Assembly (NCBI GenBank): GCA_945949085.1
Contig: CAMFDJ010000011.1
Span: 1-64,000, forward strand
DNA: 64,000 nucleotides
Direction: 5' to 3'
Origin: an uncultured Lachnospiraceae bacterium
GTDB lineage: Bacteria; Bacillota; Clostridia; Lachnospirales; Lachnospiraceae
In this document: in pieces, positions 1,479 through 11,329 of the stretch
Layout: each line of letters begins with the position of its first letter
Numbering within the stretch: the first letter of the stretch is position 1
Program-made: the position numbers and the translations under genes
Notes under the pieces: model-generated
The model's database searches: none
Told to the model about the DNA's origin: nothing
The model's input: only the letters and a program-made list of their open reading frames with translations

Positions 1479-1498
1479 TGCGGAAGATGGGACTTGAA
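1479..1498 (+). repeat. Distal att site (direct repeat of tRNA-Leu 3' end)
   Basis: TGCGGAAGATGGGACTTGAA identical to 11246-11265. Confidence 0.9.
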
Positions 1499-1556
1499 GA
1501 TTCTACTAAGCCAAAAAACCTAGGAAAGGAGCGGCTTTCGCAGTATCAATATTCTC

Positions 1557-1577
1557 TAGTCCCCGCTTAGTCCCCGC
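1557..1577 (+). repeat. Tandem TAGTCCCCGC repeats (candidate integrase arm sites, left end)
   Basis: TAGTCCCCGC at 1557-1566 and 1568-1577; related pair at 11149-11167. Confidence 0.5.
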
Positions 1578-1767
1578 ATAAAGCATTTCTCTTTTCTGTA
1601 AAATGATTTTTAATATCATCTGTTGAGAGCGTACCTTCTTGTTCACATCTTTCAATGCTATGGTCTAATCTTGTCAACATATATAATCTTTCAATGATTT
1701 GCATTTCATCCATATCGTCAGATATGCTATTTATTTTATCAATCACAAGTGCTTTTGCATGACTCAT
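1567..1767 (-). CDS. Small protein, orphan antitoxin-like
   Basis: 66-aa ORF; helical, charged, IIERLYMLTRLDHSIERCEQEGTLSTDDIKNHF resembles small type II antitoxin-like proteins; RBS aaaggag upstream; no toxin partner adjacent. Confidence 0.5.
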   Translation of the reverse strand: MSHAKALVIDKINSISDDMDEMQIIERLYMLTRLDHSIERCEQEGTLSTDDIKNHFTEKRNALCGD

Positions 1768-1819
1768 ATATAAAATCTCCTTTCGAATTTGTTGTTAATC
1801 TATTTTACCACATATATTA

Positions 1820-3124
1820 TTATTTTACATTGCTTTTCTCATTTTTATACTTCGCATACAGTCTGATATTTTCTTTGTAGTTTTCCATAAGAAAATCACA
1901 GTTCACGGGGATATGCTCTACATCTCTGTCCGTGATACAGTTAATCAGACATCTTGGCAGTAAACGGCATGACAGACACTTAGGTGGAATATTTGGTTTC
2001 ATCCAGATATCACGCTGGCTGTCTTTGTAGATACCCTCTGTCACAGAACCGATTTTATACTGCTCATTGCCAAGCAGATGTTCACAGCAGTACAGACTGC
2101 CATCGGGTGTGATACACCAGTGGTTTTCCCGACATGCTTCGCATCCCGTTGAATGAGCAGGGAAACCCACGTTAGAATAAAGATTCGTTTTTTCATCATT
2201 TACATAGCAGACTGTATCTTTATAAATCTGATTATATTCTGTTGCATTTACCGATGTCGTATCAGTCGCATCTTCTGTGTACTGTTGTACCCATGCTGTG
2301 TAAAATCCGACGTGGATATTTTGTGCATCCAGATAATCCGCCAGCTGTCTGACCTCATCTTTATTATAATCCGCCACATTCATCCGCACAGATACGTTGA
2401 TATATTTTGTGGCTGTTTTGATATTCTCTATGACCTTGTAAAAATCTTCTTCCCTGCATCCTTTCATTTTGGCATATGTCTTAGGCATTCCGTCAATCGT
2501 TATCTGCATTCTTTTTATACCCAGTTCTGACAGCCTTTTTGCATAGTCCTCTGATAACAATAATCCATTTGTGATAATAAGCTGGTTAAGCGCAATGCCA
2601 TCCTCTCTGGCAAAATCACGGTTGATTTTGTGTACCAGTTTTTCAATCGCATCCATATGTAAAAGCGGTTCTCCCCCGAACCACTTAATCACAAATCGTT
2701 TTACACCCTTAAATGCCTTTGATACACGTTTCATAAAAAGCACGGTATCCTCAATCGTTTTGTCCGACATAAAGTCATTGCATAATAAATCTCTGTTGTG
2801 CTCAAAACAGTAGACACATTTGTAATTGCAGGACATCGTCGGAGCAATCACAAACCAGAGCGTTTCACACTCTATACTGTGGTTCTTTTGGTAGGCATCT
2901 ATCAGCATGTCTTTTGTTTCGTCTGTTTCCTGCTCTGTGACCAGATGATGTTTTATCGCCCGTGCAGGCAGTTCATTTTCTGCCAGATTTTGTCTGCCCT
3001 CTATCAGCGCATATTCTTCTTTGGATAACCAGACAAAGCTGTTGTGTAAACTGTTTGCAATTAGTATCTTTTCAGATTCGGTAAAAATTGGTATATTATA
3101 TTTAGATTCTTTGTATGTTTTCAT
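1820..3124 (-). CDS. Radical SAM/SPASM domain protein (peptide maturase-like)
   Basis: CNYKCVYC (CxxxCxxC) cluster motif, WFGGEPLL, and a C-terminal SPASM Cys set (CEACRENHWC...CC...CLSCRLLPRC...C); ATG at 3124, alternative TTG at 3142. Confidence 0.85.
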   Translation of the reverse strand: MKTYKESKYNIPIFTESEKILIANSLHNSFVWLSKEEYALIEGRQNLAENELPARAIKHHLVTEQETDETKDMLIDAYQKNHSIECETLWFVIAPTMSCNYKCVYCFEHNRDLLCNDFMSDKTIEDTVLFMKRVSKAFKGVKRFVIKWFGGEPLLHMDAIEKLVHKINRDFAREDGIALNQLIITNGLLLSEDYAKRLSELGIKRMQITIDGMPKTYAKMKGCREEDFYKVIENIKTATKYINVSVRMNVADYNKDEVRQLADYLDAQNIHVGFYTAWVQQYTEDATDTTSVNATEYNQIYKDTVCYVNDEKTNLYSNVGFPAHSTGCEACRENHWCITPDGSLYCCEHLLGNEQYKIGSVTEGIYKDSQRDIWMKPNIPPKCLSCRLLPRCLINCITDRDVEHIPVNCDFLMENYKENIRLYAKYKNEKSNVK

Positions 3125-3169
3125 ACTTAGATAATAGTACAAATCAAATGATAAGGAAAGGCTGAAAAT

Positions 3170-3682
3170 ATGAAAGCAAAAATCCTAACTGCTGTGCTTG
3201 GGATAGTTTTAATCGCAGGTATCGGCACAAGTATCTATTTTGCAGTTGATAATAACAAAACGCAGTCTGTGGTTGCAGAGGTTACCGCAGATGCCGATAA
3301 AATAGCCAGTACAAACGACGAACAATCTGCCGACGTTCAAAAGCTCAAAGATGACTATGACGATGCACAGAAAAACGGGCAGGATTTGGTTGCGACTTTA
3401 GAGAATGCAGAGATGCAACAGGATGCCATGTACCGTACAGAAAACGGTTATGTACTGGAAACGATAGCCGAAACCTCGGCAAAAATATCTGTTGAGCAGG
3501 CAGACGTTTTACTTGGTGCATCAGATGAATATGATGTAGCAGAAACACTTGCAAAAGATACACAAATCATCGTGGATGCTAAAGCAACCAACCAGACGGA
3601 AGTATTCTATCGTATCAAAGATACGACGCATTTTGTGAGTGAAAAATCCATTGAATTAGGAGGTACAGACGATGAAGAATAA
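3170..3682 (+). CDS. Membrane-anchored SH3b-like protein
   Basis: N-terminal TM segment (AKILTAVLGIVLIAGIGTSIYFAV), coiled coil, C-terminal SH3b-like region; RBS aaggaaagg. Confidence 0.6.
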   Translation: MKAKILTAVLGIVLIAGIGTSIYFAVDNNKTQSVVAEVTADADKIASTNDEQSADVQKLKDDYDDAQKNGQDLVATLENAEMQQDAMYRTENGYVLETIAETSAKISVEQADVLLGASDEYDVAETLAKDTQIIVDAKATNQTEVFYRIKDTTHFVSEKSIELGGTDDEE

Positions 3683-4433
3683 AGTTGTAAATGCAGTCCT
3701 TGGAATATCAGCTGTAGCATCTGTTGGTGTCAGCGGTTTTTTGTATAGCGAAAATGTAAATCTGAATAACGAACTGGCAGACGTACAGAGTGCGCTCACA
3801 CAGGAACAGGAAACGCAGGCTGAAAATGAAAAGATTCTGTCTGAATATGCATTACTCATTGACGAATGCAATAAAAACGCCAAACACGCACAGGCATCAC
3901 TTGATGAACTGCACGAAAGAATGAACCACATGGAAATCATCGAGGGATATGTGATTGAACCTGTTGATAATGAGACGATGTATGTGCAGGAAGATACGAA
4001 CCTTAGAATCGGACCGAGTACGGATTATAAAGTTGCCGAGGAAATCAAAAAGAATACCGAGGTAACCGTCATCGGCAAAGTAACTAACGCAGAAGGCAAA
4101 ACATGGTATGTAATAAGTTCATCAGATGAAGATAAAATAGAAACAGGTGTAAATGACACAAACATCCTAGGTAAAAACGAAGATGGTACAGATAAACAAC
4201 ACCATATGGTAAGTTCTAGTTTACTTGGAAATAGTAAACCAGCTGCACCAGCTAAACCTAAACAGCCAACAGGTGGTAGTATAAACTGCGATTGTGACAA
4301 CAGTTGTGATGCAAGTGGTTGTGATGCACATTATACATGTGATAACACTTGTGACTGTGACTGCGACAACAGTGGAGGAATGCAATGGGATGATTGTGAC
4401 TGGACAGGTGGTAATGATGGTTGGATATACTAA
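3672..4433 (+). CDS. Membrane-anchored SH3b-like protein with Cys-Asp-rich C-terminal tail (candidate rSAM substrate)
   Basis: TM N-terminus paralogous to the previous ORF; SH3b-like EDTNLRIGPSTDYKVAEEIKKNTEVTVIGKV; tail INCDCDNSCDASGCDAHYTCDNTCDCDCDNSGG. Confidence 0.65.
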   Translation: MKNKVVNAVLGISAVASVGVSGFLYSENVNLNNELADVQSALTQEQETQAENEKILSEYALLIDECNKNAKHAQASLDELHERMNHMEIIEGYVIEPVDNETMYVQEDTNLRIGPSTDYKVAEEIKKNTEVTVIGKVTNAEGKTWYVISSSDEDKIETGVNDTNILGKNEDGTDKQHHMVSSSLLGNSKPAAPAKPKQPTGGSINCDCDNSCDASGCDAHYTCDNTCDCDCDNSGGMQWDDCDWTGGNDGWIY

Positions 4434-4479
4434 GATAATCATAACACATAAATATAAATAAGTCAACACCAAAACACCA

Positions 4480-4514
4480 ATGGACATTCACCCTCCAGTG
4501 AATGTCCATTTTTC
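4480..4514 (+). terminator. Intrinsic terminator
   Basis: aaTGGACATTCACcctccaGTGAATGTCCAttttt. Confidence 0.8.
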
Positions 4515-4565
4515 ATACCCAAAATCCAAAGAAAAGAAAAACTAATTTTCGGAGGATAACCAAAC

Positions 4566-4646
4566 ATGGACACAATCAATATGTACGACGACTCATCAAC
4601 TTTAATAGACAACAATGTATTGAACAATGCCCTACTGCACGCATAG
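4566..4646 (+). CDS. Short ORF of 26 aa
   Basis: MDTINMYDDSSTLIDNNVLNNALLHA* preceded by cGGAGGataaccaaac; not in the ORF track (too short). Confidence 0.35.
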   Translation: MDTINMYDDSSTLIDNNVLNNALLHA

Positions 4647-4763
4647 TGCTAGCGTTTGGCTGACTGCCGTAAGCGCATAAGCGTAGCGGAGCAAGCGTTG
4701 CGGTAGGCATCAGACGGGCGCGTTAAGGCACTAAGTGCATCTGGGCAATACCTTCGCCAAGGG

Positions 4764-4792
4764 GGTGCATGGTCTAGTATTACCCATGCACC
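4764..4792 (+). other. Putative CRESS-type replication origin stem-loop
   Basis: GGTGCATGG-TCTAGTATTAC-CCATGCACC: perfect 9-bp stem, 11-nt loop with nonanucleotide TAGTATTAC at 4775-4783. Confidence 0.85.
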
Positions 4793-4794
4793 TT

Positions 4795-4808
4795 TGTGTT
4801 CTGTGTTC
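4795..4808 (+). repeat. Tandem TGTGTTC repeats beside origin (iteron candidates)
   Basis: TGTGTTC at 4795-4801 and 4802-4808; further TGTGTTT at 4878-4884 and TGTGTTC at 4884-4890. Confidence 0.55.
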
Positions 4809-4990
4809 ATCTCTTGCAAATCCTTATTTTATGGGCGTTACCGCTCTTTTATCTCAACACAGCTGTCCCCGTTTTGCTGTGTTTGTGTTCACTGTCTGTG
4901 TCTATCCTCTTTTATAAATAATCTGGAATAACTTTTCAAAGTATGATATTTTGATATTATATTAAACAAATGAAAAAGCGAGGTAAAAAA

Positions 4991-6205
4991 ATGATAGAAG
5001 AACAGGTATATCATAGTATGCAGATATTCCTTGCATTGTTGAGAGAACTATATAAAATTGTAGCATATCAAAACCATGCAAATAAAAAGAGCATTCAATC
5101 ATTGCTTGATTATCTGCAAATTACGGAACAGGATTATCAGATACTTTTGGGATATAATCGTTTCAATTTTAGTGATAATCGTATTCAAACTTATATTGGG
5201 AAAATTATTCCCAAATTATTGGCAGGCGGTATTTCAAAAGAACTGCTCACAGATTTTGAAATAATCGATGATACTATGGATTGGCATAGTCTTCTTTTTA
5301 CAATGGATGATGATTTGGCAGAAAAATTAGATGCATATCTTTTTTCATTGAAACAATATGCTTATAATCAAGAAATGACATACTCTGATATGTCAGTTAT
5401 TTCAAAACAAAAAATGAAAGAGGAAACAGCTTCAAACCTCGATAGTAAAAAATCGGTTGAAGATAAAGAAGAAGACAGGAAAACACGTGAGGAATTTCGT
5501 GCCAGCATAAAAGCCAACTATATGACGATTAAAAAGAAAGATGATACACCTTTTTATTATGATGTTGTGAAACTGTATCATCATATCAACGGTATTTCTA
5601 CTGACGGAAGCGTCCGCGATTTTGTAGCATCCAGCAAAGCAAATATTATGACCAAACCTTTTCTGCAAAAAGATGTTAAAAATCAAATTATTGACGATTA
5701 TAAATCGTTTGCCCAAAAGAATAATATTCCGATTGAACAAAAGCCTATTCTAACGCATGGGAACGAAAAAGGAAAAACAATTAAATTAGATAACGATGCA
5801 TTATCAAAACGAGCCATCAATCTTTTACTAATTCGTGAAACAATTTATGTGCTTTGTGATATGGATGATATAGATTATGAATTGTTTTATCAGTATATCA
5901 ACGATAATGAGGACGAATATAACCAAAAATTATTAACGAATATGTCATGTAAAAATATTGCAGATATTTTGGAACCGTTTGGATTTTCAAAAAAACTATT
6001 TTCTGCTACAGCTCCTATCCTCTTACCGATGAGTAAATCAGTTAAAAAAATCATTTACGACAGTGGTAATCCTTCTAATAAGAATTTTGATATCGCATTG
6101 TTTGCCGAGCAGTATTATGACAATATGGTCTATAATATTGAAGAAGAAAATGCCCCTCTTGTTTACTCATGTTATAAGTTATTAGAGCAGATAAAAAAAC
6201 AATAA
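4991..6205 (+). CDS. Hypothetical protein (element cargo)
   Basis: Long ORF; RBS gcgagg before ATG 4991 (alternative ATG 4970); followed by a terminator; no family recognised. Confidence 0.7.
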   Translation: MIEEQVYHSMQIFLALLRELYKIVAYQNHANKKSIQSLLDYLQITEQDYQILLGYNRFNFSDNRIQTYIGKIIPKLLAGGISKELLTDFEIIDDTMDWHSLLFTMDDDLAEKLDAYLFSLKQYAYNQEMTYSDMSVISKQKMKEETASNLDSKKSVEDKEEDRKTREEFRASIKANYMTIKKKDDTPFYYDVVKLYHHINGISTDGSVRDFVASSKANIMTKPFLQKDVKNQIIDDYKSFAQKNNIPIEQKPILTHGNEKGKTIKLDNDALSKRAINLLLIRETIYVLCDMDDIDYELFYQYINDNEDEYNQKLLTNMSCKNIADILEPFGFSKKLFSATAPILLPMSKSVKKIIYDSGNPSNKNFDIALFAEQYYDNMVYNIEEENAPLVYSCYKLLEQIKKQ

Positions 6206-6222
6206 AACATATTCTAATCCAG

Positions 6223-6266
6223 AGACATTTGTCTTTACTTTGCGTAAAGACGGATGTCTTTTTTTT
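6223..6266 (+). terminator. Intrinsic terminator
   Basis: AGACATTTGTCTTTACtttgcGTAAAGACGGATGTCTtttttttt. Confidence 0.75.
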
Positions 6267-6281
6267 GCTTCAATTATAAAA
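6260..6281 (+). repeat. 22-bp repeat copy 1
   Basis: TTTTTTTGCTTCAATTATAAAA, identical at 6362-6383; partial copy TTTTTTGCTTCAA at 7882-7894 upstream of rep. Confidence 0.7.
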
Positions 6282-6361
6282 AAGCAAAAGTCAAATTAAA
6301 CTATACTAAATACATAAGTTGGAGCGTTCGAACGAAACAAGCCACCCCCCAAAAAGATATC

Positions 6362-6383
6362 TTTTTTTGCTTCAATTATAAAA
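6362..6383 (+). repeat. 22-bp repeat copy 2
   Basis: TTTTTTTGCTTCAATTATAAAA identical to 6260-6281. Confidence 0.7.
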
Positions 6384-6452
6384 TTTCAAAACGCTTCAGC
6401 TTGTAAACTATTAGTATAAAGTGAAATATCAAAATTTACGGAGGAAAATACA

Positions 6453-6851
6453 ATGAATTTACGTAATGTACGCATTAACCTTGGTTCAGTCGCTCGAACC
6501 ACCAACAGTAAAACGCTTGAGGCAATTAACGCAGGGCACACATACAAGCGTGACGATAACGGCAACATGACCAGAGAGCCAGACACATATTATATTGACT
6601 GCGCGGCTAATCGTGGCGACACACTGCGCGTCAAATTACCGCTTACCTGCGCAGAAAAAATCACTGCCTTGAAAGATATTCTTGACACAAGCGACCAGAT
6701 TGTCAACATCAAATTTCAAAAACTGGAACTTAAAGCCTATGCGCTGATAGGCACAAACGGCAACCTTGTCTCTGGTGTCTCTGCTAAAGCAGAGGATTTT
6801 GAGTACGCTACCGACGACTCCCTCGCTTTGGATGATGACATCGAGCTGTAA
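6453..6851 (+). CDS. Hypothetical protein; possible ssDNA-binding or replication accessory protein
   Basis: GGAGG RBS; 132 aa with an acidic C-terminus (DDSLALDDDIEL); first gene of the unidirectional rep operon. Confidence 0.6.
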   Translation: MNLRNVRINLGSVARTTNSKTLEAINAGHTYKRDDNGNMTREPDTYYIDCAANRGDTLRVKLPLTCAEKITALKDILDTSDQIVNIKFQKLELKAYALIGTNGNLVSGVSAKAEDFEYATDDSLALDDDIEL

Positions 6852-6929
6852 AAAAACAAATATGTAACTTTTAACCAAACGGGGTGGATTTCTCACTTTG
6901 CCACCCCACCATTTTATAGGAGGTTTTTT

Positions 6930-7355
6930 ATGAAAAAAAACAGCAAAACTTTTCTGAACATATTGTTCTACATTTACGTAACCGTTACCTATTATTCCAA
7001 CCTCATGAATATCATCGTACCAAATGACATTCAAAAAGTACCTGTCAGCATATTAGATGATGCCGAAAAAACCATGTTGCGCTTTTCGTTCCAAAAAAAC
7101 AAGAACGGCTCACGCATCCATACGGTTCTGCAAATTGCAGATATCTTAAATGATTATTTGCAAATTGTTTTATTGCCTAATCAAACTGATTTGCAACCGT
7201 TCCAGTGCGGAACCGGTATTCACGATGTAATAGAGCCACTTTATGTAGATATGGTTTTTGAGGACGAATATTACATCAATATCGACGTGATCTTTGTCGA
7301 CAATCCGTTAGCATTCCAGTACATCAAACGTACCTCTGTGCGTTTTGATATTTAA
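6930..7355 (+). CDS. Hypothetical protein
   Basis: AGGAGG RBS, operon with rep. Confidence 0.65.
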   Translation: MKKNSKTFLNILFYIYVTVTYYSNLMNIIVPNDIQKVPVSILDDAEKTMLRFSFQKNKNGSRIHTVLQIADILNDYLQIVLLPNQTDLQPFQCGTGIHDVIEPLYVDMVFEDEYYINIDVIFVDNPLAFQYIKRTSVRFDI

Positions 7356-7372
7356 TCAAGGGGGCATGACCT

Positions 7373-7864
7373 ATGTATCACGATTTCACATCACTGCTTG
7401 CGGGCTTTTACCGCAAGCAACTCGAGAAATGGCGCAATGATGAACTGCTACGCCAACGCCAACAGCAACAACAAAACTATAATTATGCATCACAATTTAT
7501 CCAAGAAGCACTGACTATCATCTTTTCACAGTGTTCACTATCGCACCAGCTGTCGCCCATAGCGCATCAATATGACATTATTCCTTATGGTTTTAATGTC
7601 ACGCAAGAGGACACCGTATATTATTTCCTATGGTCGAAAAAAACAAGTGATGTTATCGGCAGACCTATCCTTGACCAAATAGTTGATAAGATGAACTGCC
7701 ATATAGAGTTTTTCCGCAGACAGTTTTATCTGTCATTTTCAAGGCTACCGTCAGATGACCAGATTTTATATGTGCAGTTGTATCCTGCCATATACAACGG
7801 ATTTCATATCGTGGATTGTATAGATAAAAATACCGACATTGTACTGGCTGTTGTATTTGATTAG
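7373..7864 (+). CDS. Hypothetical protein
   Basis: AAGGGGG RBS, operon with rep. Confidence 0.65.
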   Translation: MYHDFTSLLAGFYRKQLEKWRNDELLRQRQQQQQNYNYASQFIQEALTIIFSQCSLSHQLSPIAHQYDIIPYGFNVTQEDTVYYFLWSKKTSDVIGRPILDQIVDKMNCHIEFFRRQFYLSFSRLPSDDQILYVQLYPAIYNGFHIVDCIDKNTDIVLAVVFD

Positions 7865-7976
7865 TTATTTTTCCAAAGCTCTTTTTTGCTTCAAAAATAA
7901 ATTAGTATTTTTATTCTTTTGTTATTCTTTATTTACGGTCGTAAATATAATACAGTTGCGCAACGGAAAGGAAATC

Positions 7977-9044
7977 ATGTTAGTAAAAGATACTCCCAAA
8001 ATCAGAAGCCGTAAATATCTTCTGACCATTAACAATCCAGCACAGCATAATCTGTCACACAATACTATCTCTGAAACGATAGATAATTCCAAAATAGCTG
8101 TACGCTATTATGCAGTCTGTGACGAAACAGGTTCACAGGGAACATACCATTTTCACGTATTTTTGTATTTTAAAAATGCAATTGATTTTCAAACAATCAA
8201 GGGTATGTTCCCACAGGCTCATATTGATATCGCAAAAGGCACTGCCGAGGAATGCAAAGCGTATTTATTAAAATCGAACAAAAAACACAACAAAGCTGAT
8301 GACGGTTCATATCAGTACAAAGACACCTCTGGCAAAACACATTCTGGTGTCAATCATTCCGATACATTTGAGGAACACGGGGAATGCCCTAAAGACCACG
8401 CAGGCGCACGCAATGATTTGGAGCAATTATACAACTATGTGAAAGATGGTCTCACGAACGCTGAAATAGTGGAGCTTATGCCCAAAACAGGAATCAAATA
8501 TCTGGATAAAATAAATCGGCTCCGTCATGATTATTTAGAGGACAAGTATAAAAACAGCAGGCGGTTGGATTTAAAAGTACATTATATATTTGGTAAAACA
8601 GGAACTGGAAAAACCAGAGATATTCTCGACCAGTATGCAGATTCTGAGGTATACAGAGTAACCGATGCGCAGCACCCTTTTGACAGTTATAAGCAACAGT
8701 CAGTTATCGTGTATGAAGAGTTTCGTTCTTCACTGCGTCTACAAGACATGCTTAATTATTTGGATATCTACCCTGTAGATTTACCAGCCAGATACAGTCC
8801 TAAAGTATGTTGTGCAGAGACGATTTTTGTTGTATCAAACTGGACATTTGAAATGCAATACGCAGAGCTTCAAAAAGACCCTGAACAGAAAGCTTCCTAT
8901 GAGGCATGGGTACGCCGATTTAATGGGGAAGTTAGAGAGTACACTGATTCAGGAATAAAAGTATATAAAACAATGCAGGAATATCTGCATCGAGATACAG
9001 ACTTTGTTTCACTTGATGAATCGGTCGAATTACCATTTGACTAA
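7977..9044 (+). CDS. rep: CRESS-DNA-type replication initiator (HUH endonuclease plus SF3 helicase)
   Basis: Motif I KYLLTINNP, motif II YHFHVFLYF (HUH), motif III AYLLKSNKK (YxxK), Walker A FGKTGTGKT, Walker B SVIVYEEF, motif C TIFVVSNW; start reset from 7839 to ATG 7977 with RBS ggaaagg. Confidence 0.92.
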   Translation: MLVKDTPKIRSRKYLLTINNPAQHNLSHNTISETIDNSKIAVRYYAVCDETGSQGTYHFHVFLYFKNAIDFQTIKGMFPQAHIDIAKGTAEECKAYLLKSNKKHNKADDGSYQYKDTSGKTHSGVNHSDTFEEHGECPKDHAGARNDLEQLYNYVKDGLTNAEIVELMPKTGIKYLDKINRLRHDYLEDKYKNSRRLDLKVHYIFGKTGTGKTRDILDQYADSEVYRVTDAQHPFDSYKQQSVIVYEEFRSSLRLQDMLNYLDIYPVDLPARYSPKVCCAETIFVVSNWTFEMQYAELQKDPEQKASYEAWVRRFNGEVREYTDSGIKVYKTMQEYLHRDTDFVSLDESVELPFD

Positions 9045-9057
9045 TTTATAGTTTCCG

Positions 9058-9210
9058 TCATGGCGCGGATTGCAGGAGTAGGATTTTAAAAATTTTGGTA
9101 AATCGCAGATAGCAGATAGTTCTATCGCTACTGAACTATCACAAATCTGCGATTTATTCGCTCAATATGGATACAGCGCACGCCATCAAAAAATCAGGCT
9201 CCTGCAAATT
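9058..9210 (+). repeat. Structured region with nested and interleaved inverted repeats downstream of rep
   Basis: AAATCGCAGAT (9100-9110)/ATCTGCGATTT (9145-9155), GATAGTTC (9115-9122)/GAACTATC (9133-9140), plus outer TTGCAGGAG/CTCCTGCAA. Confidence 0.7.
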
Positions 9211-9339
9211 AACAAGGAATGTGAAATTTATTATATTATTTTTTTCTTCCTTTATAAAAATTGCAATATAGGAATCTTGCTATGCTATGTACATGTTCAG
9301 GGAACATATAAATCATACGACAGAAAGGAAAAGAAAATT

Positions 9340-9750
9340 ATGAACGATGTAACTTATCAGAAAATGCTCGAGTCGTTTTTTTTAGACTTAGTGCAGCTAC
9401 ATTTACTTGAACAACCAGAAACAGTATCTACATCTACAGAGGATGATGGTGTTGTAATTACTACCGATTGTTTCCAAACTCATCCAAAGGATTATGGCAC
9501 ATTATCAAATTTTGCGGATGTAATTGGTAATCCAACTGTATTGAAACTAGATTATCACACACTTCTGTTTTGGGTTTTGCTTAATTTTTATGGTGTACAG
9601 TGTGAAACACTTGATAACAGAAAACAGGTTGAGATTTTTCTAAAACTTATACCTATGAAAATTATGAATAAAGTTGAGGATAAATATATCCCAACTCAAA
9701 CCTATTTAGCATGTATTCAAATTAAAGATTATAACAACACAAAAAAATAG
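9340..9750 (+). CDS. Hypothetical protein (element)
   Basis: ATG 9340 with RBS gaaaggaaaag; no family recognised. Confidence 0.6.
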   Translation: MNDVTYQKMLESFFLDLVQLHLLEQPETVSTSTEDDGVVITTDCFQTHPKDYGTLSNFADVIGNPTVLKLDYHTLLFWVLLNFYGVQCETLDNRKQVEIFLKLIPMKIMNKVEDKYIPTQTYLACIQIKDYNNTKK

Positions 9751-9821
9751 AAAGGCAAGATACTGCCATACAAAATAAGTCAACCATATATTAAAGCGTT
9801 TTATCTTGATGGTAAAACCAA

Positions 9822-11216
9822 ATGATAAAAAGTTTGCCTGATGAGGCATCAAATTTTATCCAAATGCTGGCTGATTGTGGTATGATTACAGATATTGATA
9901 CTGCGATTAGTCAGTACGAGGAATTGGAGAAACGACAAAGAGAAAAATACGTTATACAAAAAATTGGTTCTGTTTCTAAAGAACCAAATTACAAAAACAA
10001 AACTTTATACAGAAAAAGAGTCACATACCAAGATATCTATAAAGAAATCACTGCTGAATCCTATGATAAATTGATACAAAAAATCTTTGATTTTGTGTCC
10101 GCCTTAGATGATGATAAAACACAATTTATGGATACATCATTTCGTGCCATCTATAAGATTGCGCATATGAATTATGTAAAAACAACCAATCGTTCATCGC
10201 AGACATATGCATCATACGATAATTATTATAAGCGGTTTATTAGTGAAGATTTTGAAAAAACGGACATCAGGACAATGACTGTTGATTATTTAAAAGCTTA
10301 CGCAAAAGAATTGGTTACCAGATTAAAGCTAGACAAAAAGACTTTTAACAAGTTTAAAAGTGTATTAAATATGGCATTCAATTATGCCTATGAATATGAA
10401 ATCATTAAACGTAACCCAGCACCTTTTGTAAAAGCTACCGACTTTGTTGTAGCATATGCCAATCGGTCTATGCCAACAACGGAGACTAAAATATTTACAA
10501 TAGCTGAGCTTGAGAAAATCAAAACAGAAATTCGTAAAAGAATGACCCAGAAAAAATATGGTGCTTTTTATGCACTTGGCTATGCCATTTTGCTATCTAT
10601 TTTAACTGGAATGCGTGCAGCTGAAATATGCGCCCTTAAATGGTCTGATATACAGCTTTATAAACAGCGTATCTGGATTCATTCGCAGCAGCTTAAGGAA
10701 ATAACACCTAAAGGGCAACCTAACACATTCTATGATGTACCATGGACTAAGAATGAAAAAAGAATGGATAAACCGACTGGTCGATATTTCCCGATATCAT
10801 ATGAGTTAAATGCACTGTTAAATGAAATCAGTGAAAAGCAAAGAAAGCTTGGTATAGATTCTATGTATGTTATCTGTGATGAAACAGGTGATAGCATTAA
10901 GACTCCTGCATATGAAACAGGATTACGCAGATTATGCCAATCTTTAGGATTTGAAATTACCAATAATCATGCATTTAGAATGACGCTTAATTCGCTTGTA
11001 TTGATTCCTGCTGGATTTACAGTAACCGAAAGAGCAGCTATGCTAGGGCATTCTGTGCAAACAAATTTAATGTATTATAGTTTTGACCCAAGAGACTCAG
11101 AACTTGAAAAAGCAGACAGATTAAACACATATTTAGAGGGTAAAAATCTAGTCCCCACTAGTCCCCAGTCAAATATTGTGGATATCAGAACAAAAAAAAT
11201 CCCTCAAGCCTTGTAA
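9822..11216 (+). CDS. int: Tyrosine recombinase/integrase
   Basis: Catalytic-type motifs LTGMRAAEICALKWSDI (R), NNHAFRMT (HxxR), MLGHSVQTNLMYYSF (H...Y); next to the tRNA att site. Confidence 0.95.
   Translation: MIKSLPDEASNFIQMLADCGMITDIDTAISQYEELEKRQREKYVIQKIGSVSKEPNYKNKTLYRKRVTYQDIYKEITAESYDKLIQKIFDFVSALDDDKTQFMDTSFRAIYKIAHMNYVKTTNRSSQTYASYDNYYKRFISEDFEKTDIRTMTVDYLKAYAKELVTRLKLDKKTFNKFKSVLNMAFNYAYEYEIIKRNPAPFVKATDFVVAYANRSMPTTETKIFTIAELEKIKTEIRKRMTQKKYGAFYALGYAILLSILTGMRAAEICALKWSDIQLYKQRIWIHSQQLKEITPKGQPNTFYDVPWTKNEKRMDKPTGRYFPISYELNALLNEISEKQRKLGIDSMYVICDETGDSIKTPAYETGLRRLCQSLGFEITNNHAFRMTLNSLVLIPAGFTVTERAAMLGHSVQTNLMYYSFDPRDSELEKADRLNTYLEGKNLVPTSPQSNIVDIRTKKIPQAL
11148..11167 (+). repeat. 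Tandem CTAGTCCCCA repeats (candidate integrase arm sites, right end)
   Basis: CTAGTCCCCA at 11148-11157 and 11158-11167, overlapping the int 3' coding end. Confidence 0.5.
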
Positions 11217-11233
11217 ATTCAAGGTTTGAGGAA
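11202..11233. terminator. Bidirectional terminator between int and tRNA-Leu
   Basis: ttCCTCAAGCCTTGtaaattCAAGGTTTGAGGaa; minus side followed by an 8-T run. Confidence 0.8.
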
Positions 11234-11245
11234 CTCTTAAACCAG

Positions 11246-11329
11246 TGCGGAAGATGGGACTTGAACCCACACGATATTGCTATCACAAGATCCTTAGTCT
11301 TGCTCGTCTGCCAGTTCCGACACTTCCGC
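11246..11329 (-). tRNA. tRNA-Leu(AAG)
   Basis: Minus strand GCGGAAG...CAAGA-CTAAGGA-TCTTG...GGGTTCAAGTCCC...CTTCCGCA; long variable arm; CCA not encoded. Confidence 0.93.

Follow-up and report, generated by a model that had tools for sequence, protein, structure and literature searches.

We analyzed a 64,000-nucleotide stretch of DNA from an uncultured Lachnospiraceae bacterium (the window; contig CAMFDJ010000011.1 of assembly GCA_945949085.1, positions 1 to 64,000 of the forward strand), in which positions 1,479 through 11,265 hold a tRNA-associated element encoding a tyrosine integrase and a replication protein (Rep) of the circular Rep-encoding single-stranded (CRESS) DNA type. The features that define it are the following.

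1479..1498, plus strand: distal attachment (att) copy, an exact 20-bp repeat of the tRNA-Leu 3' end (0 expected)
4619..4891, plus strand: origin region, with GTGTTC-type repeats on the 3' side of the hairpin; 98.9% identical to a second element in the same genome, on contig C4
4764..4792, plus strand: origin hairpin GGTGCATGG-TC-TAGTATTAC-CCATGCACC, with the loop nonanucleotide TAGTATTAC at 4775-4783
7977..9044, plus strand: CRESS-type Rep with HUH endonuclease and superfamily 3 (SF3) helicase domains (Pfam; 7lar; motifs intact)
9822..11216, plus strand: tyrosine integrase (Phage_integrase, E = 1e-13; PHROG integrase, E = 2e-33)
11246..11265, plus strand: tRNA-proximal att copy, exact repeat (0 expected)
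11245..11329, minus strand: tRNA-Leu(AAG), the attachment gene, intact

The window has exactly two copies of the 20-mer TGCGGAAGATGGGACTTGAA (1479-1498 and 11246-11265), against an expectation of zero (0 of 300 Markov shuffles), and the repeat-to-repeat unit is 9,767 bp. The right copy forms the 3' end of a minus-strand tRNA-Leu(AAG) gene that is intact (11245-11329). An exact repeat of this 3' end at both boundaries and a circle of about 9.77 kb had been put forward from the sequence in the original prediction; the repeat and the length hold, with a small correction that sets the right copy at 11246-11265. The integrase, which had been described as abutting the tRNA, ends 30 bp from it, is full length, and retains the R...HxxR...LGH...Y residues. 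The GC content is 36.6% within the element vs. 45.2% in the chromosome to its right. A chance repeat or duplicated tRNA fragment flanking ordinary chromosomal genes is a highly improbable explanation: the left flank resembles a recombination hot spot and its gene order is not conserved, as this explanation would have it, but the expectation of zero repeats, the shift in GC, the adjacent integrase, and independent relatives with the same layout all argue against it.

These relatives come from 392 sampled Lachnospirales genomes, 29 of which carry a related Rep. The syntenic one (L014, Lachnospiraceae) is a 9,209-bp element with a 22-bp repeat at the 3' end of a different tRNA-Leu gene, tRNA-Leu(CAG); it encodes, in order, an SH3 protein, proteins of 130, 133, 144, and 168 residues, a Rep 62% identical to that of the window, a 153-residue protein, and an integrase. 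When 15 related loci with a nearby tRNA, L014 included, were examined for att repeats, a direct repeat was found in 12, and in 11 of them (18 to 45 bp) it lies at the 3' end of a tRNA for Leu, Pro, Gly, Cys, or Ser; in L066 the direct repeat is 22 bp away from the tRNA. Given the tRNA 3'-end repeats in related elements, the layout is a recurring one. At another locus (L050, G401:C11), two different elements, each with Rep, origin, and integrase, stand in tandem at one tRNA-Gly(GCC).

The Rep is full length with its catalytic motifs present, and its best start is the ATG at 7977, preceded by GGAAAGGAAATC. It matches Viral_Rep (E = 8e-12) and RNA_helicase (E = 2e-4) in Pfam and, among solved CRESS Rep structures, 7lar (E = 2e-9). 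Motif III reads YLLK in the window and YxxK across the whole Rep alignment (A4), not YLxH, which marks pCRESS4-8 (PMC6668415); on this basis the Rep falls with the p4M-like groups. The sole plasmid match in PLSDB is p4M of Bifidobacterium (RepA, 27.6% identity, E = 3e-19). A CRESS-like Rep with HUH and SF3 domains, a YxxK motif III, integration at direct repeats, and no capsid genes are likewise traits of pCRESS1-3 (PMC6668415), and 97.5% of the Reps outside pCRESS7 and 9 were found in site-specifically integrated bacterial mobile elements devoid of viral structural proteins (Kazlauskas et al. 2019, PMC6668415). The element is thus of an already published type, the pCRESS integrated plasmid, and the combination is not new; the difference is the nonanucleotide hairpin, which the main text of that paper does not mention. 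What our analysis adds, beside a Rep-less companion described below, is a circovirus-type origin hairpin shared across related loci.

The interior had been predicted to carry rep and an origin. The origin candidate (4764-4792) is not beside rep but about 3.2 kb upstream; in related loci the hairpin usually shares the strand of rep and immediately precedes it. The loop sequence TAGTATTAC is the nonanucleotide of circovirus form. As single-stranded DNA, a 48-nt region around the hairpin folds with -9.8 kcal/mol (z = -3.0). A hairpin with NANTATTAC is present in 23 of 24 related loci (dinucleotide shuffles, 0.3; permuted motifs, 0 to 2), and short GTGTTC repeats 3' of the hairpin are common to the window and L014. 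The stems vary in sequence yet pair (100% of 104 cells, 42 double changes, 13 sequences); the hairpins were chosen by stem score, so these pairing counts are partly circular, the genome-wide model search less so. In that search a covariance model of the hairpin, blind to Rep, matched 23 of the 392 genomes, 17 of them Rep-positive (p = 1.8e-17); once the training genomes were left out, 8 of 14 matched genomes were Rep-positive (p = 3e-8). Matches lacking a Rep in G204, G218, G253, and G079 are weak, that in G204 also falling on both strands, and were treated as chance; in G097 the contig ends just after the hairpin, and its Rep is probably off the contig. The main texts available to the literature search contain no mention of this hairpin origin for pCRESS elements.

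Circoviruses offer a close likeness for the replication module: they share the TAGTATTAC loop in a hairpin followed by short repeats 3', and the window Rep matches the solved CRESS Rep 7lar. The window element differs in being bacterial, integrated, about 9.8 kb in size, and furnished with an integrase but no capsid gene. An intact bacterial replicon that has both Rep and origin layout in common with circoviruses is relevant to the proposed descent of eukaryotic CRESS-DNA viruses from bacterial plasmids, in that the origin, not Rep alone, seems to be shared.

Taken together, the locus is very probably a p4M-like pCRESS integrative plasmid of 9.77 kb. The tyrosine integrase would recombine the 20-bp att core located in the tRNA-Leu(AAG) 3' end, insertion leaving the tRNA intact and excision freeing a circle. 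Rep would then use its YLLK tyrosine to nick the hairpin (4764-4792) within the TAGTATTAC loop and its SF3 domain to unwind the circle for rolling-circle replication, with a cassette of radical S-adenosylmethionine (SAM) and Cys-rich proteins travelling as cargo. We infer excision, nicking, replication, and transfer from the sequence.

Besides the partial circularity of the pairing counts, several observations weigh against this reading. No circular form was found, the attP junction being absent, as an exact pattern, from viral contigs; the integrative-plasmid part of the original prediction is supported by the anatomy and by the relatives with tRNA 3'-end repeats, and its excision and rolling-circle part can only be inferred. 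No exact empty site was found in 60 relatives, in which the joined flanks match no more than the tRNA and a few bases. The hairpin is missing from the p4M plasmid itself. Finally, the left flank (window positions 1 through 1478) contains an AAA-ATPase-like gene truncated at the window start and a decayed C terminus resembling that of a serine recombinase, and could therefore represent an older element at this site rather than ancestral chromosome. The tRNA-Leu site has the look of a hot spot for repeated insertion.

Relatives offer no syntenic empty site, since the neighboring genes are not conserved among them and the left flank of the window element carries recombinase remnants. A 30-bp match beside the tRNA-Leu of one relative (G035) was not counted as an empty site, since its contig starts in an integrase 60% identical to that of the window; this fragment (L073, G035:C50, positions 2 through 112), beside a tRNA-Leu(AAG) at the contig end, is another relative at the same site. 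In the closest species (G001) a terminator-like repeat follows the same tRNA-Leu, and the 15 kb read there contain no related Rep; this would fit an unoccupied site but does not amount to syntenic proof. The origin as an exact pattern had no match in viral contigs.

The absence of a circle or attP could also mean that the element is a decaying or immobile remnant, integrated long ago and now inherited only with the chromosome, and a single draft genome from one time point cannot show activity. We consider this unlikely: neither Rep nor integrase is truncated or has lost a motif, the two att copies are identical, and cargo and origin match those of the second element of this genome at 96 to 100% identity over most of their length, a match suggestive of recent movement or exchange.

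Related Reps are also encoded by inoviruses with Zot, namely gut bajarodino viruses (38 to 43% identical) and L015, L055, and L059; for these three loci and four inovirus records (PQ006121, PQ006124, PQ006184, and PQ006138) the identity to the window Rep is about 39 to 43%. The four records were checked for the TAGTATTAC hairpin, and all four carry it. By sequence, a replication module is common to filamentous phages and integrative plasmids; the bajarodino viruses and other Inoviridae differ from the window element in having Zot and the filamentous-phage gene set. The shared Rep and hairpin would also fit a defective inovirus prophage that lost its coat and Zot genes and kept the replication and integration module. 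We regard such an origin as improbable, given that no Zot (PF05707) match was found in the element or anywhere in the assembly, that no coat family match was found in the element, and that the nearest relatives (L014, L047, and L048) likewise yielded no Zot and have another set of backbone genes in common; for the latter reasons this subgroup probably lacked Zot from its ancestor onward. The predicted lack of relaxase, coupling protein, capsid, and type IV secretion genes agrees with our scan, in which none of these, nor coat or Zot, had a family match among the scanned genes (Pfam, NCBIfam, PHROGs, and PADLOC; the origin of transfer, oriT, was not searched for). Small coat proteins, which are hard to detect, had no family match in the element.

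The integrative plasmid is accompanied in the same genome by a second integrated element (L089, G000:C4, positions 10039 through 15907), which is 5.86 kb long, has its own integrase, and lacks a Rep as well as any counterpart of the window genes at 4970-9750. Its 13-bp repeats AGAGCGCGAGACG (at 10039 and 15895; 0 of 300 Markov shuffles) lie at the 3' end of a tRNA-Gly(GCC). The 273-bp origin region is 98.9% identical to that of the window and the hairpin is identical (27 bp); its cargo comprises two radical SAM genes, the 170-residue protein (100% identical), and an SH3 protein with a different Cys-rich tail. The window hairpin occurs exactly twice in the genome, and Rep only once. In another species, a 3,147-bp element (L120, G213:C6, positions 3458 through 6634) with a 30-bp repeat at tRNA-Gln contains only a helix-turn-helix gene, the TAGTATTAC hairpin, and an integrase; its origin stem and GTAACC repeats match a Rep element of yet another species (G151, L041), not the Rep of its own genome. 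In a third Rep-less case (G259:C60), an origin and then an integrase stand at the contig end, and the assembly has no Rep.

Geminivirus betasatellites and deltasatellites are Rep-less DNAs that carry the origin nonanucleotide hairpin of a Rep-encoding helper (PMC4756297). The C4 and G213:C6 elements resemble them in being Rep-less yet bearing the origin hairpin of a Rep-encoding element; they differ in being chromosomally integrated, with their own integrase, and in that their trans-replication is putative, whereas the geminivirus satellites are free circles in plants for which trans-replication has been demonstrated. We tentatively propose that the window element acts as a helper whose Rep would replicate the C4 element, with its same origin, in trans; together with G213:C6, the latter might then be a bacterial, integrated counterpart of the geminivirus satellites. 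If this is true, bacteria have Rep-dependent satellites in the form of integrated elements, and a natural helper-satellite pair is present in a single genome. Alternatively, the Rep-less elements could be derivatives without a replication module that merely persist, or recombination between the window and C4 elements could have homogenized cargo and origin. A joining error could also lie behind the two-element picture, the assembly being a draft (84.7% complete) in which two contigs are identical over about 1.5 kb.

The cargo of the window element comprises three genes.

1820..3142, minus strand: radical SAM/SPASM peptide-maturase-like protein (Radical_SAM, E = 9e-19; TIGR04463, E = 3e-47, below cut-off)
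3170..3682, plus strand: 170-residue protein with an N-terminal hydrophobic segment (100% identical copy on C4)
3672..4433, plus strand: 253-residue SH3 protein with an N-terminal hydrophobic segment and a Cys/Asp-rich tail (SH3_3, E = 2e-7)

The radical SAM gene has a 97%-identical copy on contig C4. The top-scoring families for the enzyme are maturases of Cys-rich ribosomally synthesized and posttranslationally modified peptides (RiPPs; TIGR04463, CefB, and PapB), all below cut-off; a role as a defense system was rejected, viperin-like matches being weak and RiPP-maturase families scoring far better. Comparison of the SH3 protein (3672-4433) with its C4 equivalent (L089, 13320-14090) reveals a similar N terminus and an exchanged Cys/Asp-rich tail. 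In another genome (G362), a related radical SAM enzyme adjoins two lipoprotein-like proteins with similar Cys-rich tails, with an integrase nearby. The SH3 protein is a possible substrate of the radical SAM enzyme, and the cargo may constitute a membrane-anchored, cross-linked peptide system, possibly ranthipeptide-like, whose tail is exchanged between elements. Similar tailed lipoprotein-like proteins adjoin a related radical SAM enzyme at L090 (7936-9342).

The remaining features are backbone genes, open reading frames (ORFs), and an inverted repeat.

1567..1767, minus strand: 66-residue ORF (ORF only; no family at a cut-off)
4970..6205, plus strand: 411-residue backbone protein (no family match)
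6453..6851, plus strand: 132-residue conserved backbone protein (homologs adjoin related reps in L014, L047, and L048)
6930..7355, plus strand: 141-residue backbone protein (homologs in L014 and L047)
7373..7864, plus strand: 163-residue backbone protein (homologs in L014 and L047)
9099..9156, no strand: inverted repeat directly after rep with 24-bp arms (83% complementary) and a 10-nt loop
9277..9750, plus strand: 157-residue ORF, with ATG 9340 the likelier start (positional equivalent in L014)

The inverted repeat at 9099-9156 is a candidate terminator or single-strand origin.

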